Positions 36,600-49,356 of a DNA stretch of 64,000 nucleotides are shown here, piece after piece. The position numbers were made by a program, and so were the translations under genes. Numbering within the stretch: the first letter of the stretch is position 1; every line of letters begins with the position of its first letter. The stretch spans positions 124,001 to 188,000 of the forward strand of contig NZ_NFKS01000001.1 in the NCBI RefSeq assembly GCF_002160515.1. Direction: 5' to 3'. The notes under the pieces were generated by a model. It was not told the origin of the DNA. It saw only the letters and a list, made by a program, of their open reading frames with translations, and did no database searches. This DNA is from Anaeromassilibacillus sp. An172. Its GTDB lineage: Bacteria > Bacillota > Clostridia > Oscillospirales > Acutalibacteraceae.

Positions 36600-37727
36600 T
36601 TACATTTCCTCCATAAAATCATTTTTCGCGGTATTCCATTCGGGCCGTTTATCGCTCGACCGCACGAGCGTCGGCCTGCCTTGCGGCTTTTCAATGTAGG
36701 GTGTGAGAAGCTCCTCAAAGCGGGATTTGCCCAGCAGCTTCTGCATGGCGGTGATGCCGAGGAGTTTCTTTTCGTAGGGGTTGAAGCCGGCGCCCTCAAC
36801 GGCTGTGGCCACAGCGGCTTCGCTGGTGTATTTGCGGTTGGAGCGGCCCTCGACCAGCTTCCAGCCGGGGAACGCCGTACCGCTGACTGCCTGCTGAAGA
36901 GCGTATTCCTTCACATCCGCAGCCCAGGCGGTAAGAGCGTCGACCTTGCCGAGAATATCGGCGATCTCCTCATCAGCGAGGAGCGCAGGGGTCTGGAATT
37001 CGTACCGGGCAAGAGCCAGGTTCGCTTCGGCGCGCTCTCTGCACTCGGCTTTCGCCTTGCAGAACCGGCACCACTCACCACAGCTGAAGGAGCCTTGACC
37101 TTCATAAGCAAGCTGCGCCTTCTGAGTCAGTTCACTGTTTGCCCATTCGTACAGGTCGGCCTTGTCCATCTCATACACGCTGATGTTGGACTTCCTCGGC
37201 TGATAGATGGTCATGCGGACAGTGTCGATGTCGTAGATGCCATCGAAGATTTCCAGAGCGCCCAAGGCATAGAGCATCATCTGTGGATTACGCTCTGCAA
37301 GCACGAGGCATCCTTGCCCGTTTTTGTAATCGCAGATGTTCAGAACACCATCCGCAATGACGATGCAGTCTGCCGTGCCGAAGCCCTCTTTGACCCAGCG
37401 TGAGAAGTCCACCCGCTGTTCGATCAGGATGAGCGGGTCGGCGCAGGTCTGCTTTGCGGTCTCCAGAAGCTCCGATACATAGGCGGCATACCCGGCGGCG
37501 CAGTCCTCCATCTCCTCGTTGTACCAGGAGAGGTTTTCGATGGGATCATCCGCCGGAATCCCCAGAGCCTGCTTCAGACGAAACTCACAGAGCGAGTGGG
37601 CGTCTGTTCCTTCTGCGGCGTAATCGCTGCCCTTGTCCTCGTAGGCTTCGCACAGCCTTGCTGAGGGCGGACAGTTGATCCACCGCTCTGAAGAAGAAGC
37701 GGATAAGACTGCGTGCTTAACTGCCAC
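36600..37727 (-). CDS. DUF2800 Cas4/RecB-like nuclease
   Basis: A 375-residue DUF2800 protein of the PD-(D/E)XK superfamily. GTADCIVIADGVLNICDYKNG holds the D and D-x-K residues, and CGEWCRFCKAKAEC near residue 220 resembles the cysteine cluster of Cas4/AddB iron-sulfur nucleases. Probably a recombination exonuclease that works with the SSB-like protein next to it. GTG start at 37727 after GAGGTGATGACGG. Confidence 0.88.
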   Translation of the reverse strand: MAVKHAVLSASSSERWINCPPSARLCEAYEDKGSDYAAEGTDAHSLCEFRLKQALGIPADDPIENLSWYNEEMEDCAAGYAAYVSELLETAKQTCADPLILIEQRVDFSRWVKEGFGTADCIVIADGVLNICDYKNGQGCLVLAERNPQMMLYALGALEIFDGIYDIDTVRMTIYQPRKSNISVYEMDKADLYEWANSELTQKAQLAYEGQGSFSCGEWCRFCKAKAECRERAEANLALARYEFQTPALLADEEIADILGKVDALTAWAADVKEYALQQAVSGTAFPGWKLVEGRSNRKYTSEAAVATAVEGAGFNPYEKKLLGITAMQKLLGKSRFEELLTPYIEKPQGRPTLVRSSDKRPEWNTAKNDFMEEM

Positions 37728-38034
37728 CCGTCATCACCTCCGCTTCGGCGAGTAGTGCCTTGTAATGTGCGGGGTCGATCTGTGACAGCTTGGATGCGCC
37801 GTACTTTTGAAGCAGGGCGCGGATCTCGGCGGTGTGTCCCTGGCGGGATTTGTCCGCAAGCACGGTTCGGACCTGCTCCAGCGTCAGTTCCGGTTTAGGA
37901 GGAGCAGCAGGAGTATCCTCTGCCTGCGGCTCTCCGCTGAACATCTTCGTCAGCCAGTCAGCGGCATCCGAAATAGCAGCGGCAGCACTGCGTAAGTCTT
38001 CGATGGTCTGTGCCATATCGCTCATTCTGCTCAT
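37717..38034 (-). CDS. Conserved phage protein, 105 aa
   Basis: A 105-residue helical protein. The C-terminal half (LTLEQVRTVLADKSRQGHTAEIRALLQKYGASKLSQIDP) looks like a small helical DNA- or protein-binding domain seen in phage replication modules. Overlaps DUF2800 by 11 bases. Homologues carry misleading names such as rrp5; no function is established. Confidence 0.75.
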   Translation of the reverse strand: MSRMSDMAQTIEDLRSAAAAISDAADWLTKMFSGEPQAEDTPAAPPKPELTLEQVRTVLADKSRQGHTAEIRALLQKYGASKLSQIDPAHYKALLAEAEVMTGGS

Positions 38035-38182
38035 GTGATTTTCCTCCTTCCCCGGATTTGCATTGCTGGCGTGCGGCGGTCAGGTTGCTCGCCAGTCTCT
38101 TCGACACCACGCTGATCGCGGTCAGGATATCAACAATGTCCTCGTCGGCGTGGGTGCCATAACGGTTTGTGTTGTAACGCAT
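37958..38182 (-). CDS. Small conserved phage protein, 74 aa
   Basis: Starts MRYNTNRYGTHADEDIVDILTAISVVSKRLASNL, with a strong AGGAGGAACGCCGAT before the ATG at 38182. Its last ~25 codons overlap the following gene, so the C-terminus is constrained. Unknown function; copy 2 of the two-part repeat lies 45 bases upstream. Confidence 0.65.
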   Translation of the reverse strand: MRYNTNRYGTHADEDIVDILTAISVVSKRLASNLTAARQQCKSGEGGKSHEQNERYGTDHRRLTQCCRCYFGCR

Positions 38183-38227
38183 ATCGGCGTTCCTCCTTTC
38201 CCAAGGCGTCTTGTGTTGCCTTTCACA

Positions 38228-38263
38228 GACCCATCTGGACAGGAAAGGAGGGGTTGGCCGAAA
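38228..38263 (-). repeat. Two-part repeat element, copy 2
   Basis: GACCCATCTGGACAG (38,228-242), 11 bases, TTGGCCGAAA (38,254-263), identical blocks and spacing to 804-839. Lies between the stop of the regulator at 38,268 and the start at 38,182. Confidence 0.65.
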
Positions 38264-38267
38264 GATT

Positions 38268-38780
38268 TTAGAATTTTTCCTTGAGCCGCTTCAGCAGCTG
38301 ATTGCGCTTATACACAAAGGTGTTCCGGGGCATCTGCAGCCGCTCTGCGCCGGCGCGTTCGGAAAGCCCGTCCGCAATTGCCATGAGGATCTCATAGCTT
38401 TCCGGGTCGGTTGACTGAAGCTCCGTGAGCAGACCGTTCAGGATCAGGGAGTCGATATCGATCTCTGTGGTCAGCCTGCTGTCCGCAAGAAAGCTGGCGC
38501 GGGAGACGCCGTTCTCATAGGCGTTCTCCATTTCTGTGTCGATGGAGAGATGCTGGGGAGCGTCTTTCGGGATACAGCGGAACTCGCAGGTGTCGCAAAT
38601 ACCGTCGCACTTGTAGCTCTTTTTGTACGGGATACAGCAGGCTCCGGCTCTCTGTTTTGCCTTGCGGGTAGTTCCTACGAACCGCTCCCAGTCCCGTTTC
38701 TGTTCCGGGGTGACCTCGATCCACTGCTTGAGCGGGCGGTAGTAGATGGTTGATGTGGTCTGATTTGCATTGGTTTTCAT
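38268..38780 (-). CDS. Early phage regulator with sigma-like HTH
   Basis: A 170-residue protein. A cysteine cluster (CCIPYKKSYKCDGICDTCEFRC, about residues 48-69) suggests zinc binding. The C-terminus GLSERAGAERLQMPRNTFVYKRNQLLKRLKEKF is a helix-turn-helix of the region 4 type. Likely a transcription regulator of the early genes. Its Shine-Dalgarno lies in the 3' arm of a hairpin immediately before the start. Confidence 0.75.
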   Translation of the reverse strand: MKTNANQTTSTIYYRPLKQWIEVTPEQKRDWERFVGTTRKAKQRAGACCIPYKKSYKCDGICDTCEFRCIPKDAPQHLSIDTEMENAYENGVSRASFLADSRLTTEIDIDSLILNGLLTELQSTDPESYEILMAIADGLSERAGAERLQMPRNTFVYKRNQLLKRLKEKF

Positions 38781-38785
38781 AAAAA

Positions 38786-38884
38786 GTCCTCCGATTTTCG
38801 ATTTCTCGAAACGGAGGACTCTGGGTGCTGCCGCAAAAAGGGTGCAAAAACCTAACCGCAGTCCTGACGGAGTACTCCGTTTCG
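38786..38884 (-). promoter_or_regulatory. Structured leader hiding the ribosome binding site
   Basis: Plus coordinates: GTCCTCCG (38,786-793) pairs with CGGAGGAC (38,812-819). On the minus-strand RNA the arm nearest the gene contains GGAGGA, the ribosome binding site, and is followed by five T residues then ATG. A second pairing is possible: CGAAACGGAG (38,807-816) with CTCCGTTTCG (38,875-884). The two pairings share bases and exclude each other. Confidence 0.6.
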
Positions 38885-39015
38885 GATTGCGGCTAACCCG
38901 CTCAAAAGGCAGCCGTGATATTGAGTTGTGCCGCCAGATACCGTTGAGCCATCAGTGATCAGCTGATGCGGTGTCGGGCGGTGAGCAGTTTTTTGTCTTG
39001 CTCAGGACAGATGGA
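38885..39015. other. Intergenic stretch, no gene seen
   Basis: No open frame with a start and Shine-Dalgarno. Together with the leader (38,786-38,884) this forms a 235-base non-coding gap between the two earliest minus-strand genes. Confidence 0.5.
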
Positions 39016-39216
39016 CTATCTTAGATCGGCTTCAATGGCGTACAGTTCGCTGAAAAGATCTTGAAGCGTATAGATGCTTGCTTTTTCAAGATTTCTAACG
39101 CCATGCTTTTTTAGAATAAACGCAATGGATTTATCAGCTGAATCCAGGTGGGACTCAATGAAATCGATGCTGCTTTCAATGCTGATGATTAGATTTTGCT
39201 TGTCACAATTTTTCAT
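39016..39216 (-). CDS. Small early protein, 66 aa
   Basis: MKNCDKQNLIISIESSIDFIESHLDSADK: a 66-residue helical acidic protein. ATG at 39216 with GGAGGAGGAAAAGTCA upstream. It is the first minus-strand gene after the divergent control region. Unrecognised; it may be a regulator or an anti-host factor. Confidence 0.65.
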   Translation of the reverse strand: MKNCDKQNLIISIESSIDFIESHLDSADKSIAFILKKHGVRNLEKASIYTLQDLFSELYAIEADLR

Positions 39217-39347
39217 TGACTTTTCCTCCTCCTTGTCGTATTCAGCTTCAATCCGGATTTTGGCTGTGCTTGTACTTAAAATTTTACTCAGAACGGCAGA
39301 GGCAAAAAACGAATGGAAAAAGAATGGAATCGGAAGATTTTCGGAAC

Positions 39348-39381
39348 GAAAAAACGGGGTTTCCGCTCACTGCGGAAACCC
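39348..39381 (-). terminator. Strong hairpin terminator in divergent control region
   Basis: GGGGTTTCCGC (39,355-365) and GCGGAAACCCC (39,371-381) form a perfect 11-base stem with a 5-base loop. On the minus strand it is followed by G and six T (39,353-39,348). It would stop or attenuate leftward early transcription. Confidence 0.8.
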
Positions 39382-39463
39382 CGGAAAGATAAAAAGGTGT
39401 TTTGTATTGGCAAGTTGTGGTTCAAGACGATGCGAATATGCTGGGTGACGATCAGACATAGAT

Positions 39464-39483
39464 TTTGACTTTGAAAAGTCAAA
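39464..39483. promoter_or_regulatory. Inverted repeat, candidate operator
   Basis: TTTGACTT (39,464-471), four bases, AAGTCAAA (39,476-483): perfect 8-base arms. Located between the leftward hairpin and the rightward promoter, where a repressor site is expected. Confidence 0.5.
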
Positions 39484-39511
39484 GTTAAACACGAACGTTC
39501 TCAATGTTGGC

Positions 39512-39540
39512 TTGACAAACACGAAGGTATGTGCTATAAT
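39512..39540 (+). promoter_or_regulatory. Consensus promoter of the defence operon
   Basis: TTGACA (39,512-517), 17 bases, TATAAT (39,535-540): a perfect housekeeping promoter. AAACACGAA occurs at 39,487-495 and again at 39,517-525 within the spacer, 30 bases apart, a likely operator for the XRE protein encoded next. Confidence 0.88.
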
Positions 39541-39586
39541 ATTTTATTGACGATATCAGTGTACATTAAAGCAAGGAGGATCGCCG

Positions 39587-39793
39587 ATGGAATATAACTA
39601 CAATAAGCTATGGAAACTGTTAATAGACAAAAAATTGATGAAAAAAGATCTGATGGAAAAAACCGGCATCACATCATCTACCATCGCCAAGATGGGGAAA
39701 AACAAAGCGGTGAGTATGGAGGTTCTCGGGAAAATATGTATAGCTTTGGATTGTAATATAGGCGATATCGTTGATGTGATTAAAGAAGATTAA
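39587..39793 (+). CDS. XRE/Cro-type regulator of defence operon
   Basis: A 68-residue single-domain helix-turn-helix protein (KDLMEKTGITSSTIAKMGKNKAVSMEVLGKICIALDCNIGDIVDV), YozG/Cro-like. RBS AAGGAGGATCGCCG. First gene after the consensus promoter and 39 bases before the HamA-like gene, so it probably autoregulates the defence operon; it may also serve as the phage control protein. Confidence 0.88.
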   Translation: MEYNYNKLWKLLIDKKLMKKDLMEKTGITSSTIAKMGKNKAVSMEVLGKICIALDCNIGDIVDVIKED

Positions 39794-39832: not shown

Positions 39833-41350
39833 ATGGAGCATCTTTGCGTTGGCTCATATGTAAGAATTATGACATCATGCGCTATTCCCGCAGAGCGCAA
39901 GTTTGATCCCTTCTGCGAAAAAATCATGTTGTCGCTATGTCCGGTAGGTTCTACAGTCTTTTCATATACATCAGCCGATGGGTATGAGGTTACTTACTCA
40001 TATACTAATTTCAATAAGATTCACTCTGCAAGCCAGAACCTGCCAACCGAGGTTATGCAAATGGCTCTAAAGAAGGATGCCCGTGTAATCGAACGGTATT
40101 TTATTCAGACCATCATCCCTGCAATGGAAGAGGCTCGTAAGAAAAATGCTGTGCTTGCATTGAAAAATGTCATTCTGAAAGATGCCACAATTGCCGACTC
40201 TACACAGCTTGGTACAATCGGCAACCTCACCAAGAATGATCTTAGGAATAAAAATGAGTTCGTACTCTCTGAATTCCTGACAGATGTGTTCATTTATGCA
40301 GTCGCAAAAACAGATAACATGATAGAGGCTGCATTCACTAAATCTATCAAGAAGAATTTCTATACAGCTTACAATTTGATGGCAGATACCATTAAATTTT
40401 ACGAAGTAACAAAACCAAGAACTGCGGCAGCAATCCCCCTGACGAGCAAGGGCAAATTTGACAAGGTTTTTACGCCCGTATCAAGCGAGACACTTTCCAT
40501 ATCCGCAAAACACGACCTTCAGATTTTTTGCTTGAAGTTTGATGATTTTGATTTTGACTATCATGGTCTGTGGAGACACCTTCGTAACAATATCGGGTAT
40601 TACGTCTATTCCAGGGCTCAGATTGAGACTTACATGGAAGATGATGAGATTTCTGCACTTGCTTACGACGCAATAGCGTATATCAAAAAGGCCATCGCTG
40701 ACGGGAAATTACCGACTGGCAATGAGCTCGGAGAACTCTTGCTGTACATATTCCTGGAGCAGGTTCTCGTAGCTCCTAAATTAATGAGCAAGGTCGAAAT
40801 AGGAAATCACGGCGGTTTTATGACGAGCGAAAGTTCCGGTATCCACCTTCTTACCGCTAATGAAACAGTCCCTTTTAGTCAGGTCATTCTCGGGACATCA
40901 ATGATAAACGGGAATTTGCAAACAGCAATAGACTCAGCCTTTGCGGATGCACAAAAACTAAAGAATAGAAAGAAGGACGAGCGGCGATTTGTTGAATCAA
41001 ACATATTTGCGGCTTCTTTTCCATCGAAAATTTACGATCAGCTTGAAGCAATAATCCTGCCTTCCGAAACGGGCGGTCAAAAGCCTGCCACAGCGTTTGG
41101 TATGTTCGTGGGGTATAGTTTGAACGGAGTATCCGCACACGGAAAACCAGTAAACGAATATCAGGACGATGTGTTTGAGCAGGTCAGAAATGACATCAAA
41201 AACAATGTGTTATTCATTGAATCGAAAATCACGCAGTATGGACTTGACGGCTACTCTATGTATATCTATTTGCTACCCTTCGCTGATGCGGACGAGGACA
41301 AAAAAGATATCATGGACAAGCTGTTGCAATCCGGAGGAGGTCAGGCATGA
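39833..41350 (+). CDS. hamA: HamA-like (DUF1837) defence protein with N-terminal extension
   Basis: A 505-residue protein. Residues ~228-495 match the HamA C-terminal/DUF1837 domain of Hachiman (NELGELLLYIFLEQVLVAPKLMSK near 298-320, AFGMFVGY, YSMYIYLLPFADADE near 475-488). Residues 1-225 form an extension not found in ordinary ~280-residue HamA. At the place where I expect G-E-S/A-K the sequence is GTSM (354-357), and SSGIH (334-338) stands where D-G-x-H is usual, so the nuclease site looks lost. ATG at 39833 follows AAGGAGG. Stop overlaps HamB start. Confidence 0.8.
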   Translation: MEHLCVGSYVRIMTSCAIPAERKFDPFCEKIMLSLCPVGSTVFSYTSADGYEVTYSYTNFNKIHSASQNLPTEVMQMALKKDARVIERYFIQTIIPAMEEARKKNAVLALKNVILKDATIADSTQLGTIGNLTKNDLRNKNEFVLSEFLTDVFIYAVAKTDNMIEAAFTKSIKKNFYTAYNLMADTIKFYEVTKPRTAAAIPLTSKGKFDKVFTPVSSETLSISAKHDLQIFCLKFDDFDFDYHGLWRHLRNNIGYYVYSRAQIETYMEDDEISALAYDAIAYIKKAIADGKLPTGNELGELLLYIFLEQVLVAPKLMSKVEIGNHGGFMTSESSGIHLLTANETVPFSQVILGTSMINGNLQTAIDSAFADAQKLKNRKKDERRFVESNIFAASFPSKIYDQLEAIILPSETGGQKPATAFGMFVGYSLNGVSAHGKPVNEYQDDVFEQVRNDIKNNVLFIESKITQYGLDGYSMYIYLLPFADADEDKKDIMDKLLQSGGGQA

Positions 41351-43980
41351 GCGATTTTAGAGATGTCACCTTCGGGGAGCATTTGTTTTCGAGAATAGAT
41401 GATAACGTTTATCTGCAAAAGCTGTATCACAATATCCTTATCAACTATTCCAGGCGTTTGTTCCATTTGGATGAGATGGAGGAACAGCCTGTTAACATTG
41501 GGGATGCTTTGACCTTTGCAGATGTGCTTTCAAAATCATGCGGCACAAACCTGTCGGATATTCATAAGACTCGTGCGCAGGAAATGGTAGCACTGCTTTA
41601 CGATATGTATCCTAAAGATGAGCAGGTGAAGTATTATCTCGGTTCTGTCCTTGCCAGTACGGGGAATTTCCTCGGCATGAATAAACTGACACCAGATTTT
41701 GAAAATGCCTCTCTGCTCGAGCGTGTGTTCATGCACTTCAACATGGATTATCTGTCTGTGCCGTCCGATGGCGGGGCTCGTTTCTTTCCTGCGCAAAAAG
41801 AGATATACGACAGCCTGTCCAGACCCTATTTCAGCTATTCCGCGCCCACGTCTATGGGGAAATCTTTTATGATGCGTGCGTTTATTAAGCAGCAGATTGT
41901 GGATGGTGCAAAGAAAAATTTCGCCTTGCTCATCCCTACGAAGGCATTGATAAACGAGGTTACAAGTGAATTGATCGAGAGTCTCACCACTCTACTGAAA
42001 GAGACAGATTACCGTATTGTGACATCCTCTGGCTCGATGGCATTAGAGACGAAGCATAATTATATTTTCGTTCTAACACCGGAGCGAATGCTTTATATTC
42101 TGATTGATGATCCTGACCTTAAGATTGATTATTTGTTTGTGGACGAGGCTCATAAAATATCTTCTGGAGATAAGAGGAGTGCATTTTATTACAAGGTCAT
42201 CAACAAGTTAGGAGAACGGCATAGCAACGCACATATTATATTTGCATCGCCGAACATTCCGAATCCGGGAATTTATCTCGATACATTGTCAATGGGAGAA
42301 TCGACCATTGGAGAAGGATCTATCGTGGCGTGCAGATATGCTCCTGTCAGTCAGCTAAAATACATCGTTGACTTGTGGGAACGCAATATTCGCGTCTTCG
42401 ACTCATACTCGAAGAAATTTATATTGTTACACGAAATGAGTCGCCAGTACTCGTTGAGTGAGGTGATTGCCCGAATCGGCGATAAGAGGCACAACATCGT
42501 TTATTGCAAATCAAAGAATGATGCCATTCAGTTTGCAAGAGATTATGCGGACACACAGGAGCCGATCGGCGATAAAAAGCTACAGACATTTGCGGAGGCA
42601 ATCCGCAACGATGTCCATAAGGAGTACTATCTCGCTGAATTGGTTGAAAGAGGCGTGGCATACCATATCGGTTATCTTCCGGCAAATATCAGAATGCAGC
42701 TTGAGGATTATTACCGCGAAGGTCTTATTAAGACAATGTTCTGCACAAGCACCTTGTTGGAGGGAGTAAATCTACCTGCGGAGAACCTGTTTATTACAAG
42801 CTATAAGAAAGGCAGGAGTGACTTCTCAGAGGTAGACTTCAAGAACCTGGTCGGGCGTGTAGGACGCGCTAAGTACAATTTATATGGCAATGTCTTTATC
42901 GTCCGGCTTCAAAAGCAGGAACGAGAAGAAGATCTACAGAAGTTTGAGAATTTGCTGAAGGACGATGTGCCGCCGCAGAAACTATCCATAGAAGCGGAGC
43001 TAAACTCGAACCAGAAAAAGCTAATAGTAGACACGCTTCTTTCCGGCAGCGTAGAAATACACAAGTCCAAGAAGAACCAGAGTGAAGACAACTACGAGCT
43101 GATGCGAAAAACGATGCTGATTCTTGTTGGGGATATTGTAGACGGCAGGAACAGCCGGATAAAGCGGGAATTTGCCCCTTACCTGACATCTGAGACTGAG
43201 TCAAAAATCCGGGAGCAGTTTTCCGTACCAGAGAAAAAGCCTGAGGATGATATCAATGTCTCGTATGACCAGATACAGGGCATCGAAAAACTCATCCGCG
43301 ACGGACTGGCTTACCCAGAAATCAAAGACTCGAAACGCGGAGCGGATTATTACGAGACGCTGGCATTCCTCAACAAACTGGCTGTGGCGTTCAAATGGCG
43401 CATCTACGAAAATCGAACTCTCGGAGCCGGAGAAGGAAGAAATTATACCAAACTGACATGGTATACCGTTCTCCTAATCCAATGGATGCAGGGACATGGA
43501 CTCAGCTACATCATCGGACGAAGCATAGATGATTACGATGAGAAAAAGCGAGAGGTAAAAGTTGACTACAACAAGTGGGAACCATTTGACGGTTCTCAGA
43601 AACACAAGAACATAATCATCGCCGATACGCTGGAGGCAATCGAGGATGTACTTCTGTTCCGGCTGTCAAACTACTTCCTCAAATTTTCGGAGGAATACAA
43701 GCGTCAGCATCCTAACGAACCGTTCACGAACGACTGGTATGAATTTGTGGAGTATGGGACAACAAACCGCCTGCGAATCATTCTGCAGCGGAGCGGTTTT
43801 AAGCGAGACTCAACGGAGTATATCCGAAAAAATGCTAATACGTATGTACGAGGAACTCCGGACAATCCCAAGCTGCTTAAAACGGCATTACTGGAGTGTC
43901 CAAATGAACTGGTGAGAAGAGACACCGAAGAAATCCAGTACAATGTACCGGAGCTATTCATAGATGAAGGAGAAGAATAA
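41347..43980 (+). CDS. hamB: HamB-like DEAD/DEAH helicase
   Basis: An 877-residue superfamily 2 helicase. APTSMGKSF (166-174) is Walker A, VDEAHK (265-270) the DEAH box, and LVGRVGRAKY (501-510) motif VI. Length and motif style fit HamB, the sensor helicase that holds HamA until it meets damaged or phage DNA. Starts within the HamA stop (ATGA) and ends 1 base before the methyltransferase ATG, indicating stoichiometric coupled translation. Confidence 0.85.
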   Translation: MSDFRDVTFGEHLFSRIDDNVYLQKLYHNILINYSRRLFHLDEMEEQPVNIGDALTFADVLSKSCGTNLSDIHKTRAQEMVALLYDMYPKDEQVKYYLGSVLASTGNFLGMNKLTPDFENASLLERVFMHFNMDYLSVPSDGGARFFPAQKEIYDSLSRPYFSYSAPTSMGKSFMMRAFIKQQIVDGAKKNFALLIPTKALINEVTSELIESLTTLLKETDYRIVTSSGSMALETKHNYIFVLTPERMLYILIDDPDLKIDYLFVDEAHKISSGDKRSAFYYKVINKLGERHSNAHIIFASPNIPNPGIYLDTLSMGESTIGEGSIVACRYAPVSQLKYIVDLWERNIRVFDSYSKKFILLHEMSRQYSLSEVIARIGDKRHNIVYCKSKNDAIQFARDYADTQEPIGDKKLQTFAEAIRNDVHKEYYLAELVERGVAYHIGYLPANIRMQLEDYYREGLIKTMFCTSTLLEGVNLPAENLFITSYKKGRSDFSEVDFKNLVGRVGRAKYNLYGNVFIVRLQKQEREEDLQKFENLLKDDVPPQKLSIEAELNSNQKKLIVDTLLSGSVEIHKSKKNQSEDNYELMRKTMLILVGDIVDGRNSRIKREFAPYLTSETESKIREQFSVPEKKPEDDINVSYDQIQGIEKLIRDGLAYPEIKDSKRGADYYETLAFLNKLAVAFKWRIYENRTLGAGEGRNYTKLTWYTVLLIQWMQGHGLSYIIGRSIDDYDEKKREVKVDYNKWEPFDGSQKHKNIIIADTLEAIEDVLLFRLSNYFLKFSEEYKRQHPNEPFTNDWYEFVEYGTTNRLRIILQRSGFKRDSTEYIRKNANTYVRGTPDNPKLLKTALLECPNELVRRDTEEIQYNVPELFIDEGEE

Positions 43981-43981
43981 G

Positions 43982-45880
43982 ATGGCGAATTTTTACGAAA
44001 CCGTGCTGACGGTACTAAAATCAGACGAGAGATTTGTTGCCGAGGATGGCACTTTTCTACGTAATGCGGTCTATGAGGCTGCAATGAAGATGGACGAGGG
44101 ACTTATCCGTCTCCTTCTTGCGAATGACGAGACACGCACTCGATTCTTCGCAGAAGTCGATGGCGTCAAAGTCTTTGACAAGATGGGATTTGCCTGGATA
44201 ATCAACAATCGGCAATTTCTGCCGGATAGTTATACCCGTTTCAAGAATAAGATTGGGCTTGCCGATGAGACTGGTGCGCTGATTTCTGCATCTGGTAAGG
44301 TGGAACTTGTTTTTCCCTACAAAGATTGCATTCTGGAAGGCGGTCAAACAACGGAAGATCAAAAGCGCCATGAGATTTTTTATAACGAAGCATTAGCGAC
44401 CGATGAGGTTGATAGGCTTCTTTTTCCAAAGGTTCTCGCTTCTGCAAAGTCGTATTCAAAGGAAGGAATCGTCTCTGCATCTTCGATTACCGATGATGAT
44501 AATCTTGTTATAAAGGGAAACAATCTACTTGCCCTTTCATCGCTCTTAAAACGCTATGAAGGAAGGATCAAGTGTATTTGCATCGACCCACCTTATAACA
44601 CGAGCAATAGCGGGTTCGGATATAACGATAGCTTTAACCACTCTGCTTGGCTCACATTTATGAAAACAAGGCTGGAAATATCGCTTCGATTGCTGTCAAA
44701 GCACGGTACAATATTCGTTTTTTGTGATGACAACGAACAGGCTTACTTGAAGGTTCTTATGGATGATATTTTTGGCAGGGAAAGATACATACAAACTGTT
44801 ATTTGGAGAAACTGCGATAATAGCAACAATGATGCAAAGCAGTTTTCACAGGATCACAACTATATTCTTGTCTATTCTCGCAATGAAGGCTGGGAAAGTT
44901 TTAAGCTGGATAGAACTGAAGGTCAAGCTAAACATTACAAAAATCCAGATAACGATCCGCGTGGACCGTGGTTCGATGGCAACCCTGTAAATTCACCGAA
45001 CCCTCGGCCTAATCTACGGTATACAATTACCGCTCCGAATGGCAATATTATCAATCCACCAGCAAATGGATGGAGATGGAACCAAGAAGAACTCGCAAGG
45101 AGAATGGCCACGGGGGAAATAAGATTCAATGAATCTGGAACAGGAATCATCCGTAGAACATACCTTAATGAGCAGAAAGGGTTGCCGCCTTCAACTTTGT
45201 GGGATATATGTGAGGAGCCCTTGTGGGTTGATATTGAAGAAACAGGTCATACCCGGCAGGCAAAGTATGAACAAAAGAAGCTCTACCCGGGCGTAACAAC
45301 AAGCGATCTGTTCAAAACTCCAAAGCCGGAAAGGGTAATAAAAAAGATCTATGATATTTCCACTGAGGAAGGAGATATCGTTCTTGATTTCTTCGGAGGA
45401 AGCGGTACGTCGGCCGCTGTAGCTCACAAAATGAAAAGGCAATATATCCTTTGTGAGCAGATGGACTATATCGAGACATTTATCGTTAAACGTCTCGAAA
45501 GAGTAGTTGATGGCGAGGACGGCGGCATATCTAAGGAAGTTGACTGGCAAGGCGGCGGTTCCTTCGTTTACTGCGAACTGGCAAAACTGAACCAGACGAT
45601 TGTGGAAGAAATAGAAGCTTCTACTGATGATACTACTTTGTCCGACATCTACGGCAGAATGGTAAAGTCCGGCTTTATCAGTTACAAGGTAAATCCGGCT
45701 GATATTGATGCGGCTGCTGATGATTACGCTGCGCTCTCGCTGAATGACAAGAAACGATTCTTGATGGAGATCTTGGATAAGAATCTTCTGTATGTAAACT
45801 ACTGCGATATTGATGATGAGGAGTTTGGCATCTCCGATGAGGACAAGGCGTTTACGAGGAGCTTTTACAGGGAGGGATAA
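43982..45880 (+). CDS. mod: Type III restriction-modification methyltransferase (Mod)
   Basis: A 632-residue beta-class amino-methyltransferase. Catalytic DPPYNT at 202-207 precedes the SAM motif DFFGGSGTS at 469-477, the order of type III Mod proteins. The segment between (210-465) holds the target recognition region. It methylates one strand of an asymmetric site and guides the Res subunit. ATG at 43982 with AAGGAG nine bases before is preferred to one 18 bases upstream. Followed 2 bases later by res. Confidence 0.92.
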   Translation: MANFYETVLTVLKSDERFVAEDGTFLRNAVYEAAMKMDEGLIRLLLANDETRTRFFAEVDGVKVFDKMGFAWIINNRQFLPDSYTRFKNKIGLADETGALISASGKVELVFPYKDCILEGGQTTEDQKRHEIFYNEALATDEVDRLLFPKVLASAKSYSKEGIVSASSITDDDNLVIKGNNLLALSSLLKRYEGRIKCICIDPPYNTSNSGFGYNDSFNHSAWLTFMKTRLEISLRLLSKHGTIFVFCDDNEQAYLKVLMDDIFGRERYIQTVIWRNCDNSNNDAKQFSQDHNYILVYSRNEGWESFKLDRTEGQAKHYKNPDNDPRGPWFDGNPVNSPNPRPNLRYTITAPNGNIINPPANGWRWNQEELARRMATGEIRFNESGTGIIRRTYLNEQKGLPPSTLWDICEEPLWVDIEETGHTRQAKYEQKKLYPGVTTSDLFKTPKPERVIKKIYDISTEEGDIVLDFFGGSGTSAAVAHKMKRQYILCEQMDYIETFIVKRLERVVDGEDGGISKEVDWQGGGSFVYCELAKLNQTIVEEIEASTDDTTLSDIYGRMVKSGFISYKVNPADIDAAADDYAALSLNDKKRFLMEILDKNLLYVNYCDIDDEEFGISDEDKAFTRSFYREG

Positions 45881-45882
45881 TT

Positions 45883-48483
45883 ATGGCATTCTTATACGAA
45901 AAAATAGATGCCTTGCGTGAATACGGTAGCAGTGCCGTTCTCCCTTCCTATATTCCGGAGAATCTGAACCCAAACTTCGAGCTGCGCCCGTATCAGAAGC
46001 AGGCGTTTGAAAACTTCATAACACATTTTGAGAGTGGTAACCGTCCGAGGCCTACGCAGGTGCTTTTCCACATGGCGACAGGCAGCGGCAAGACGCTGAT
46101 TATGGCAGGACTGATGCTGTATCTCTACAAACAGGGATATCGGAATTTCTTGTTCTTTGTCAACCTTTCAAACATTGTCGAAAAGACACGAGAGAACTTC
46201 TGCAATCCGGTATCCTCAAAGTATCTTTTTGCAGATGAGATTGTGCTGGACGGGGAACGCATCCGCATCAACCAGGTGAACAATTTCCAGTATTCCGACC
46301 AGGATGCCATCAACATCTGCTTTGCCACTACACAGGGACTCCATATGGATATGTGGATGGCAAAGGAAAATGGTATGTCCTTTGATGACTTTGACGAACA
46401 GAAGGTCGTTCTGATTTCCGATGAGGCGCACCATTTGAATGTTGATACTAAAAAGAAAATGTCAGCAGATGAGGAGTCGAGTTACCATTCTTGGGAGCAG
46501 ACTGTAAAGAATATTTTCAACCGAAATGCCGAAAACATTCTGCTGGAGTTTACGGCGACCTGCGACCTCGCAAACCCCGCGATTCGTGCGGCTTATGAGA
46601 ACAAGATCATATTCGACTATGCCCTGGCAAAGTTTTATGGCGACAGGTATTCCAAGGACATCATCACGCTGCGTTCCGATCTGACCGTCATGGAGAGGGC
46701 TTTGCAAGCACTTGTCCTCAGTCAATATCGTTTGAAGGTATTTCAGGATCATCGTCTTGGGATTAAGCCTGTTGTGCTTTTTAAGGCTGCGAAGATTGCT
46801 GACAGCAAGGATTTCATGGCTGAGTTTATTGAAACGGTGAAAAAGCTGACCGGCGCACAGCTGCGCAGTCTTTCTACTGCTGTCAATAATGAGGTCATGC
46901 ACAAAGCCTTTGCTTACTTCGCTAACAACGGTATCTCTTTTGATACGCTTGCTGCGGAGCTTCGTGATGACTTTTCCGAGGAGCATTGCGTTTCCGTAAA
47001 TGATGATAAGGATGCCACGCAGAAGCAGATTCTTTTGAATTCTCTTGAAGATGCGGACAATCCTTACCGTGCAATCTTTGAAGTCAAGAAGCTGGATGAA
47101 GGCTGGGATGTCCTGAACCTGTTTGATATTGTCCGACTTTATGAAACGAGACAGTCCAGCGGCAAAAAAATAGCTCCCGCCACTATAGCGGAAGCACAGC
47201 TGATTGGACGTGGAGCAAGATACTGTCCATTTCAGCTTGATGATGAGCAGCCGAAGTTTCAAAGAAAATATGACGAGGACGTAACCTGTGAACTGCGTGT
47301 CTGCGAGACGCTCTATTACCATTGCCAGAATGACCATCGCTATGTGACGGAGCTGCGTAATGCCCTTCGTGAGATTGGTTTGGATACCGACAAGATCGTG
47401 CAGCGTGAGTATGTCCTTAAGGATGATTTTAAGGGCACCGACTTATACCAGCAAGGCCTGATCTTCTTGAATGATCGAGAGGTGAAAGATAGAAAAGATG
47501 TGCGCGGTCTTACACCGACCGTCCGGGATGACATATACCGTTTCCAAGCTGCGACGGGAGCATCCGGCTTTGATTCTGTCATGGTGGAAACTTCGCAGGG
47601 AGTCGACCTTGTTATTGATTTAAAAACGGCTCATATGACCATCAAGGAAATTGCAGCCATCAATTATGCAATTGTTAACAAGGCTTTGATGAAATATCCG
47701 ATTTTCAAGTTTAATACCCTGCGTTCCTATTTTCCGAATGTCTCATCCACGAGGCAGTTTATCACCGATGATGAGTATCTCGGTGCTGTCCGTATCGACA
47801 TTCAGAGCAAGGATGAGCATCCGACTATGGAAACGCTCTATGCTGCAGTTTTCTATGTGCTTGGCAAAATCGCCGGTTCTATTTCCGGCATTGAAGAAAC
47901 CTATAGAGGCACAAAGACATTTAGGGCGAGAAATATCAGAGATGTCTTTCGCAACAAGACTGTCAACTATACCGATCCTCATGATGGCGGAATTGGTATA
48001 TCGCAGAACGATCCATCTGTGAAGAGCGACTGGAAAATCGACCTCTCGACTGAGGACTGGTTTGTCTATACTGATAACTACGGAACATCGGAAGAGAAGG
48101 CATTTGTTGCTTACTTCCGAGGGTATGTTGCTCAGTTACGAAAAATGTATAATCGTATCTACCTTATCAGAAACGAGCGGGAATTCCACATTTATTCGTT
48201 CGAGGATGGTGAGCGTTTTGAGCCTGACTATGTTCTCTTCCTGCAGAGGGATAAGACGGACGGTTTTGAGCAACTCCAGATTTTTATCGAGCCGAAAGGT
48301 ACGCAGCTTCTCGAAAAGGATGCATGGAAAGAAAAATTCCTGCTCCAGTTAAGGACGGAGGCTGTGCCAGCCACCATCTTTGTGGACGACAACGACTACA
48401 AGATTTGGGGACTCCACTTCTTCAATCAGGATAACCGCATGAAAGAATTTGACTCGGAGTTTGCGGCTTTGATTGGGAAGTAA
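45883..48483 (+). CDS. res: Type III restriction enzyme (Res)
   Basis: An 866-residue helicase-nuclease. MATGSGKT (64-71) is Walker A, LISDEAHH the DEAH box, and QLIGRGARYCPF motif VI. Near the C-terminus FEPDYVLFLQRD then FIEPKG forms the D...E-x-K endonuclease site of type III Res. With Mod it translocates or diffuses between sites and cuts unmodified DNA. Both active sites appear intact. Confidence 0.92.
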   Translation: MAFLYEKIDALREYGSSAVLPSYIPENLNPNFELRPYQKQAFENFITHFESGNRPRPTQVLFHMATGSGKTLIMAGLMLYLYKQGYRNFLFFVNLSNIVEKTRENFCNPVSSKYLFADEIVLDGERIRINQVNNFQYSDQDAINICFATTQGLHMDMWMAKENGMSFDDFDEQKVVLISDEAHHLNVDTKKKMSADEESSYHSWEQTVKNIFNRNAENILLEFTATCDLANPAIRAAYENKIIFDYALAKFYGDRYSKDIITLRSDLTVMERALQALVLSQYRLKVFQDHRLGIKPVVLFKAAKIADSKDFMAEFIETVKKLTGAQLRSLSTAVNNEVMHKAFAYFANNGISFDTLAAELRDDFSEEHCVSVNDDKDATQKQILLNSLEDADNPYRAIFEVKKLDEGWDVLNLFDIVRLYETRQSSGKKIAPATIAEAQLIGRGARYCPFQLDDEQPKFQRKYDEDVTCELRVCETLYYHCQNDHRYVTELRNALREIGLDTDKIVQREYVLKDDFKGTDLYQQGLIFLNDREVKDRKDVRGLTPTVRDDIYRFQAATGASGFDSVMVETSQGVDLVIDLKTAHMTIKEIAAINYAIVNKALMKYPIFKFNTLRSYFPNVSSTRQFITDDEYLGAVRIDIQSKDEHPTMETLYAAVFYVLGKIAGSISGIEETYRGTKTFRARNIRDVFRNKTVNYTDPHDGGIGISQNDPSVKSDWKIDLSTEDWFVYTDNYGTSEEKAFVAYFRGYVAQLRKMYNRIYLIRNEREFHIYSFEDGERFEPDYVLFLQRDKTDGFEQLQIFIEPKGTQLLEKDAWKEKFLLQLRTEAVPATIFVDDNDYKIWGLHFFNQDNRMKEFDSEFAALIGK

Positions 48484-48504: not shown

Positions 48505-49356
48505 ATGCCAAGGAGTAAGACTTTAAAACTATTTTTGATGGATGGAGAGCCGAGCGGCAGGATTAAATGCTCCTTGGCCAACTGGACCGGGATTGCATAT
48601 AAAATCCCTCGTACTGCTTTGGACAAGTGCAAAGATTTGGATATTCTCAAACAGAGTGGCGTGTATTTCCTGTTTGGAACTGATAAGGCAGATAATGCCG
48701 TGGTGTACATAGGCCAGGCAGGAGTTCGTAAAAATGGCAAGGGGCTCCTTCTGCGAGTGCAGGAGGCACATAACTCCATTGACTATTGGACTGAGGCAGT
48801 CATGTTCACTACGACAAATAACTCTTTCGGGCCGACGGAGATAAGCTATCTTGAAAATCGCTTCTGTAATATGGCGATTGAAGCAGGTCGTTATGTTGTT
48901 AAAAACGGAAATGACCCCAATCCGGGGAATATAACTGAGGAGACAGAGAGCGAACTTGAAGAGTTTATCGACTATGCGAAAATTGTGATGGGCACTCTTG
49001 GGCATAAGGTGTTTGAGCCGTTTGCGCCTTCTGCAGAATCCGCTGACACAGAACCGGTCCTATACATGGAATATGGAAAAGGCAAGGCTTCCGGCAAAAG
49101 AACAAGCGATGGGTTTGTTGTGCTGAAAGGCAGTACAATCAATCCTACCATGACCAAAAGTTGCCCCGAAAGAACGATAAAGGACCGTAAGAAGTATGAG
49201 GATAAGATTGACAGCAATGGAATCTTAATAGCTGATGTACTGCTTTCCAGTCCTTCATCAGCAGCCGGATTTGTTGGTGGTGCTTCCTTAAGTGGAAATG
49301 CACTCTGGAAAGATGCTGAAGGGAAAACACTGAAAGAGCTTCTTGAAGCAGATTGA
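48505..49356 (+). CDS. GIY-YIG nuclease with DUF4357 domain
   Basis: A 283-residue protein. GVYFLFG (52-58) and VVYIGQAG (66-73) form the GIY-YIG motif, and SYLENRF (114-120) carries the expected catalytic glutamate E117. The C-terminal DUF4357 domain spans ~225-280 (LLSSPSSAAGFVGG). RBS GGAGGGAAATACC, 21 bases after res; last gene before terminators. Probably a nuclease effector or DNA-processing partner of the defence operon. Confidence 0.88.
   Translation: MPRSKTLKLFLMDGEPSGRIKCSLANWTGIAYKIPRTALDKCKDLDILKQSGVYFLFGTDKADNAVVYIGQAGVRKNGKGLLLRVQEAHNSIDYWTEAVMFTTTNNSFGPTEISYLENRFCNMAIEAGRYVVKNGNDPNPGNITEETESELEEFIDYAKIVMGTLGHKVFEPFAPSAESADTEPVLYMEYGKGKASGKRTSDGFVVLKGSTINPTMTKSCPERTIKDRKKYEDKIDSNGILIADVLLSSPSSAAGFVGGASLSGNALWKDAEGKTLKELLEAD

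Follow-up and report, generated by a model that had tools for sequence, protein, structure and literature searches.

The catalytic motif of the HamA family has been described as the ‘canonical D-GEXK’ (PMC12799240), and in ECOR31 HamA residues E138 and K140 are required, the double mutant having lost defence (PMC12278908). The partner protein, HamB, is reported to respond to DNA ends (PMC12278908). Why a Hachiman relative carries a catalytically dead HamA has been posed as a puzzle (PMC12278908). The fusion of dead HamA to another domain is already known. AbpA joins a Cap4 nuclease to a dead HamA, and its defence depends on the Cap4 part (PMC12278908, PMC10732053); in protease–HamA fusions without D-GEXK the dead HamA promotes oligomerisation (PMC12799240), and a c-Jun zipper has been substituted there for the HamA domain. 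Further HamA fusions exist (PMC12799240) and the fusion described here may be among those in the supplement. The literature searched yielded no experiment on the dead-HamA subfamily to which it belongs.

The 64,000-nucleotide stretch of DNA analysed here (the window) encodes a HamA-family protein of 505 amino acids (39833..41350, + strand), composed of an N-terminal module and a HamA domain that appears from its residues to be nuclease-dead. The open frame starts with ATG at 39833, is preceded by a ribosome site (GGAGG) rated good on the window sequence, and overlaps hamB by ATGA. Pfam HamA matches residues 248–483 (E 1.5e-31), placing a HamA/DUF1837 domain in the protein, and the PADLOC HamA1 model PDLC00164 matches the whole protein (E 1.3e-201); because this match is full-length, the subfamily is already filed as HamA1 by PADLOC. 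NCBIfam gave no match for the protein. In the AlphaFold2 model (pLDDT 88.5), residues 202–501 superpose on two solved HamA chains, with Z 17.1 over 254 residues for 8zue and Z 13.8 over 229 residues for 8vx9; the HamA fold is therefore retained. The C-terminal half had been assigned to HamA/DUF1837 in the first-pass annotation, and the Pfam, PADLOC and fold matches bear this out. The HamA domain (around residues 205–500; 40445..41332, +) is proposed to serve as a HamB-docking adaptor. AbpA (chain 9wh1) is the best PDB sequence match of the window's HamA family (E 3.7e-27); a profile built largely from motif-intact HamAs matched AbpA alone in the PDB, and not 8VX9.

The D...GExK feature of canonical nuclease HamAs is, on the alignments, absent from the window's protein. 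The active site was compared with 11 HamAs that keep the family motif, in which E and K are found in 11/11 and D is nearly invariant; in these columns the window's protein reads S, T and M. The segment SSGIH (residues 334–338; 40832..40846, +) has S335 for the family's catalytic Asp, and GTSM (residues 354–357; 40892..40903, +) takes the place of GExK with T355 for E and M357 for K. The conserved Glu of the PD-(D/E)XK helix, E301 (in LGELLL; 40733..40735, +), is kept. In two plasmid HamAs fetched separately (Rhodococcus qingshengii; Paenarthrobacter nicotinovorans pAO1) the corresponding segments are SDGVH/TDGVH and FGESK. Among orthologs of the window's protein GTSM, GTSF or GTSN is found, with S, A or V for D. 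The first-pass annotation had proposed just this loss, at residue numbers that agree with the ORF translation and against a motif (GExK and an Asp) that matches both D-GEXK (PMC12799240) and E138/K140 (PMC12278908); the nucleotide range that it gave, 40862–40945, holds GTSM and leaves SSGIH outside. Since the HamA nuclease site is gone, the usual effector of the system is very probably inactive.

The N-terminal module (around residues 1–195; 39833..40417, +) is a candidate effector, because it is placed like the Cap4 of AbpA, the protease of the trypsin–HamA fusions and the TIR domain of one relative (L110), where Pfam TIR_2 (3.5e-11) occupies the module's slot in a dead HamA. Modelled alone, the module folds with high confidence into a helical domain (pLDDT 93.3, pTM 0.91); its residues C5, K134 and N162 are nearly invariant. 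Fold searches of the PDB and a viral library returned matches at chance level only (best Foldseek E 0.8, VIA Z 2.0) and no known fold is therefore assigned, which does not of itself prove a novel one. Pfam gave no match to residues 1–205 of the protein, and no protease domain is recognised in it; the missing Pfam match and the all-helical model argue against a Cap4/DUF4297 nuclease, although with fold matches at chance level a distant relation to one may still exist. The motif-intact HamAs that we have seen (about 280–332 aa) have no counterpart of residues 1–195. Profile searches located the module instead in other defence families: in LmuA proteins that carry CTD6, an ABC-3C domain, and adjoin LmuC/MC2 and LmuB (L149); in CTD11 proteins, which at L151 lie next to MC7 and an ABC ATPase together with a type III methylase and a Res-like gene; in NACHT proteins (L080, L081); and, weakly, in another, STAND-like protein at L005. 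It sits in the effector slot of LmuA at three loci (L149, L150 and L140). In LmuA the effector role is attributed to the N-terminal domain and docking to the C-terminal one (PMC10586767). As no enzymatic motif or fold was recognised, it is position that points to the mobile module being an effector or effector-assembly domain; it could instead act as an adaptor, bringing in a further protein.

A number of other arrangements of the module and its surroundings were seen. The TIR–dead HamA protein (L110:8433-9917) lies within an hsdM-hsdR-(TIR-dHamA)-HamB-GIY-YIG operon. ABC-3C operons at L151 and L154 (L152 is similar by eye) run xre - [N-module-CTD11] - MC7 - ABC ATPase - type III mod - res-like; the full operon is seen at L151 and its layout is that of the window with the sensor exchanged. 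The window's own genome has a second, more distant relative of the module (G000:C15:29745-30005, L146; E 5.7e-7); the gene that contains it encodes ~336 aa, and after it come a 242-aa gene and an ORF similar to LmuC/MC2. Two-gene cassettes at L141, L142 and L145 pair a ~210-aa protein with a distant N-module protein of ~305 aa whose tail is rich in asparagine. Comparison of window positions 36600–39793 with L147-L150 reveals that the same opposite-strand genes, DUF2800-like ‘HAVLSASSSxRW’ and a small ‘LTLEQVRTVLADKSR’ protein, flank HamAB, Lamassu and NACHT systems that have the N-module. These shared flanks suggest a defence-cargo hotspot common to a family of mobile elements.

The locus resembles each of the described systems in part. 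As in AbpAB of E. coli, an N-terminal domain is fused to a HamA lacking its active site and the fusion, which is of the AbpA type, is paired with a Ski2-like helicase; the front of AbpA is a Cap4 PD-(D/E)XK nuclease, whereas that of the window's protein is an all-alpha module with no recognised active site. With PflHamMAB (PMC12799240) the common points are a dead HamA without D-GEXK, its fusion and, as we read the locus, the triggering of the partner domain via HamB. There, however, the fused domain is a trypsin-like protease, which switches on an MBL nuclease encoded separately; the window's protein has no recognised protease or trypsin-like domain and the next gene upstream encodes a small HTH protein, not an MBL nuclease. 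The HamA fold and the intact, adjacent HamB are those of canonical HamAB (ECOR31, 8VX9), and a HamA/DUF1837 domain next to a HamB with helicase motifs identifies the pair as Hachiman; the window differs in the lost D/E/K, the extra N-terminal module and the downstream type III R-M and GIY-YIG genes. The likeness to Lamassu/ABC-3C lies in the module, which fills the effector slot of LmuA and CTD11 proteins, and in the CTD11 operons, which share the layout xre - module protein - ATPase - mod - res. Those systems differ in having an SMC-like ATPase and a middle component as sensor and CTD6/CTD11, not dead HamA, as adaptor; in the window the C-terminal domain is HamA and neither LmuB nor LmuC adjoins.

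Our preferred reading, which we consider reasonably probable, is that the gene pair is an effector-swapped Hachiman in which the dead HamA docks HamB and the N-terminal module makes the output. HamB, intact by its motifs, would sense damaged DNA or DNA ends. Cutting would no longer be done by the dead HamA domain; by analogy with the systems above we infer that it would still dock HamB and relay HamB activation, most simply through HamB-driven release or oligomerisation of HamA. The all-alpha module would then provide the output, as a portable effector or effector-assembly domain, and the infected cell would in the end stop growing or die. The neighbouring R-M system, type III here, would cut incoming DNA independently; we hypothesise that the linear ends so produced could trigger HamB, which fits its reported response to DNA ends (PMC12278908). 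A fused module is not required for the loss of HamA catalysis, since short members of the clade carry none.

The gene order around the pair is as follows. Upstream is a small Cro/C1-type HTH protein of 68 aa (39587..39793, +; Pfam HTH_26, E 5.6e-20), a probable operon regulator also by its positional conservation, as a homologue is found at position −1 in 15/27 long dead-HamA loci (0/18 short). HamB (41347..43980, +; 877 aa) is a Ski2-like helicase with an APTSMGKS Walker A motif, DEAH and GRVGR, matched by PADLOC HamB1 (E 0) and Pfam DEAD/Helicase_C. Among the dead loci, 26 long ones and 17 short ones have hamB following hamA, and the constant unit in the window's relatives is the N-terminal domain plus dead HamA, together with HamB. 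In the same operon follow the two genes of a type III R-M system with intact motifs: the methyltransferase Mod (43964..45880, +; Pfam and PADLOC matches, DPPY) and the restriction subunit Res (45883..48483, +; PADLOC REase_III, E 1.7e-129; TGSGKT, DEAH and a PD...EPK nuclease motif). The last gene encodes a GIY-YIG/DUF4357 protein (48505..49356, +; Pfam and PADLOC PDC-S14 matches, GVY and YIG motifs), a variable member of the operon.

R-M genes recur around dead HamAs, and the dead HamAB could on this account be an accessory of the adjacent R-M system, with Res or HsdR cutting and the dead HamA tethering HamB or letting it process the cut DNA. We regard this as unlikely, although it is the alternative that deserves most weight. 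Short dead HamAs, which have no N-module, are behind hsdR in 14/18 cases, as hsdM-(S)-R-dHamA-HamB (at one, L035, a 52-aa ORF call intervenes), and at L048 the dead HamA is preceded by a Mod gene and a 950-aa ORF; these neighbour classes come from seed-based profile searches and the R-M counts are descriptive, not being phylogenetically independent because the loci are mutually related. The dead HamA of an Anaerosphaera phage lies behind two hypothetical genes that read as helicase (GAGKT) and methylase (DPPF). The close orthologs of the window keep mod-res, the PD...EPK of the window's Res is intact, and the two plasmid-borne motif-intact HamAs have no annotated R-M genes within the 16.8 kb shown. 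Among long dead HamAs, type III R-M is downstream in the window, L002-L005, L009 and L108 and type I in L010, L055 and L062; type I or type III is upstream in L050, L053, L110 and L057, and type II genes are near L028 and L065. Against the accessory role, the R-M type is swapped between close relatives: L010, whose HamA is 66% identical to that of the window, has hsdR-hsdM-hsdS after HamAB in place of mod-res-GIY, and at L043, L047 and L051 no R-M gene adjoins. Moreover, a motif-intact HamA (L121) is likewise behind an hsdR fragment, and the clustering may reflect a defence island without functional coupling. At L116, behind hsdM-S-R, hamA is split into ORFs of 104 and 153 aa and hamB into ORFs of 551 and 310 aa; this is probably a broken copy of a dead-HamA locus.

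The first-pass annotation had suggested that the GIY-YIG protein or Res may do the cutting. This is not the best reading, for despite intact motifs neither is a constant partner (Res gives way to hsdR-M-S at L010 and is missing with the other R-M genes from the three loci named above), which makes both weaker effector candidates; as R-M genes are frequent neighbours, Res and the dead HamAB may nevertheless be functionally linked. That the GIY-YIG protein (48505-49356) is itself the replacement nuclease we consider very improbable. Its GVY/YIG motifs are present, and a homologue comes after mod-res in the window and at L001, L003, L004 and, past a spurious ORF, L005; at L110 and L116 one follows HamB. 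No copy is, however, recognised in the close orthologs L002 and L009 or in most long loci, and the PDC-S14 models, whose code we take to denote a single-gene defence candidate, indicate that the protein also occurs alone. The N-terminal domain, left out of account in the first-pass annotation, is the part that stays constant.

The motif loss is old and clade-wide. A tree was built with the three motif columns masked, and in it the 42 motif-less HamA domains form one clade, one change on the tree (ultrafast bootstrap 99, SH-aLRT 98). All 200 bootstrap trees (100%) recover the branch that separates them, and L113 (GESK) is the closest row with an intact motif. The tree is unrooted, and a single loss is the direction suggested because intact motifs occur widely across the family. 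One of two peptide patterns in one scan contains GAS/GTS and is biased toward dead HamAs; the genome profile searches are independent of that pattern. A scan of viral contigs with motif-intact HamAs gave no match. The HamA domain is under strong purifying selection, with dN/dS of 0.039 against L002 and 0.034 against L003, the two orthologs with unsaturated dS (more distant pairs are saturated). The 42-member clade and the low dN/dS rule out sequencing error and recent decay.

PD-(D/E)XK enzymes can relocate catalytic residues. The domain might accordingly still be a nuclease with a rearranged site, and E301 and H338 are indeed conserved; we give this little credence. Position 335 varies freely (S/A/V/D/E/K/G/N), as do 355 (T/A/K/S/I) and 357 (M/F/N/D/S/Q/H/R/E/C/K), with no consistent acidic or lysine replacement across the clade; in a nine-row alignment G354 and S356 are constant while the lost catalytic positions vary. 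In addition AbpA, where the profile alignment shows A in place of E and F in place of K, is reported to be inactive there and uses Cap4 (PMC12278908, PMC10732053). That the gene is a decaying relic without function, as the lost catalytic residues alone might suggest, is scarcely tenable given the open frame, the ATGA overlap with hamB, dN/dS of 0.03-0.09 over both domains and the clade-wide conservation.

A broader form of the effector-swapped Hachiman reading can be advanced tentatively, and we think it possible but somewhat less likely than not to hold in full. The N-module would be an unnamed effector type exchanged among Hachiman, Lamassu and NACHT systems, and dead HamAB would be a standard back-up to R-M: cutting by the R-M enzyme would yield ends for HamB to sense, and the response would come from the swapped effector or, where none is fused, from HsdR/Res. 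HamAB and the ABC-3C ATPases would then be interchangeable sensors in xre - module - sensor - mod - res.

Sharing of the module with Lamassu and NACHT proteins, a TIR–dead HamA protein and systematic embedding in R-M operons were not found in the literature searched. New here are the spread of the module and the frequent occurrence of dead HamAB inside R-M operons (hsdM-S-R-dHamA-HamB; dHamA-HamB-mod-res). One portable module is seen across three otherwise unrelated defence families, and Hachiman recurs in physical association with R-M operons of types I and III. The clade constitutes a natural series, in which the dead domain is constant while the front (unnamed module, TIR or none) and the R-M system vary. 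As the dead HamA stays constant through these changes of front domain and R-M neighbour, its proposed role as adaptor is directly testable.
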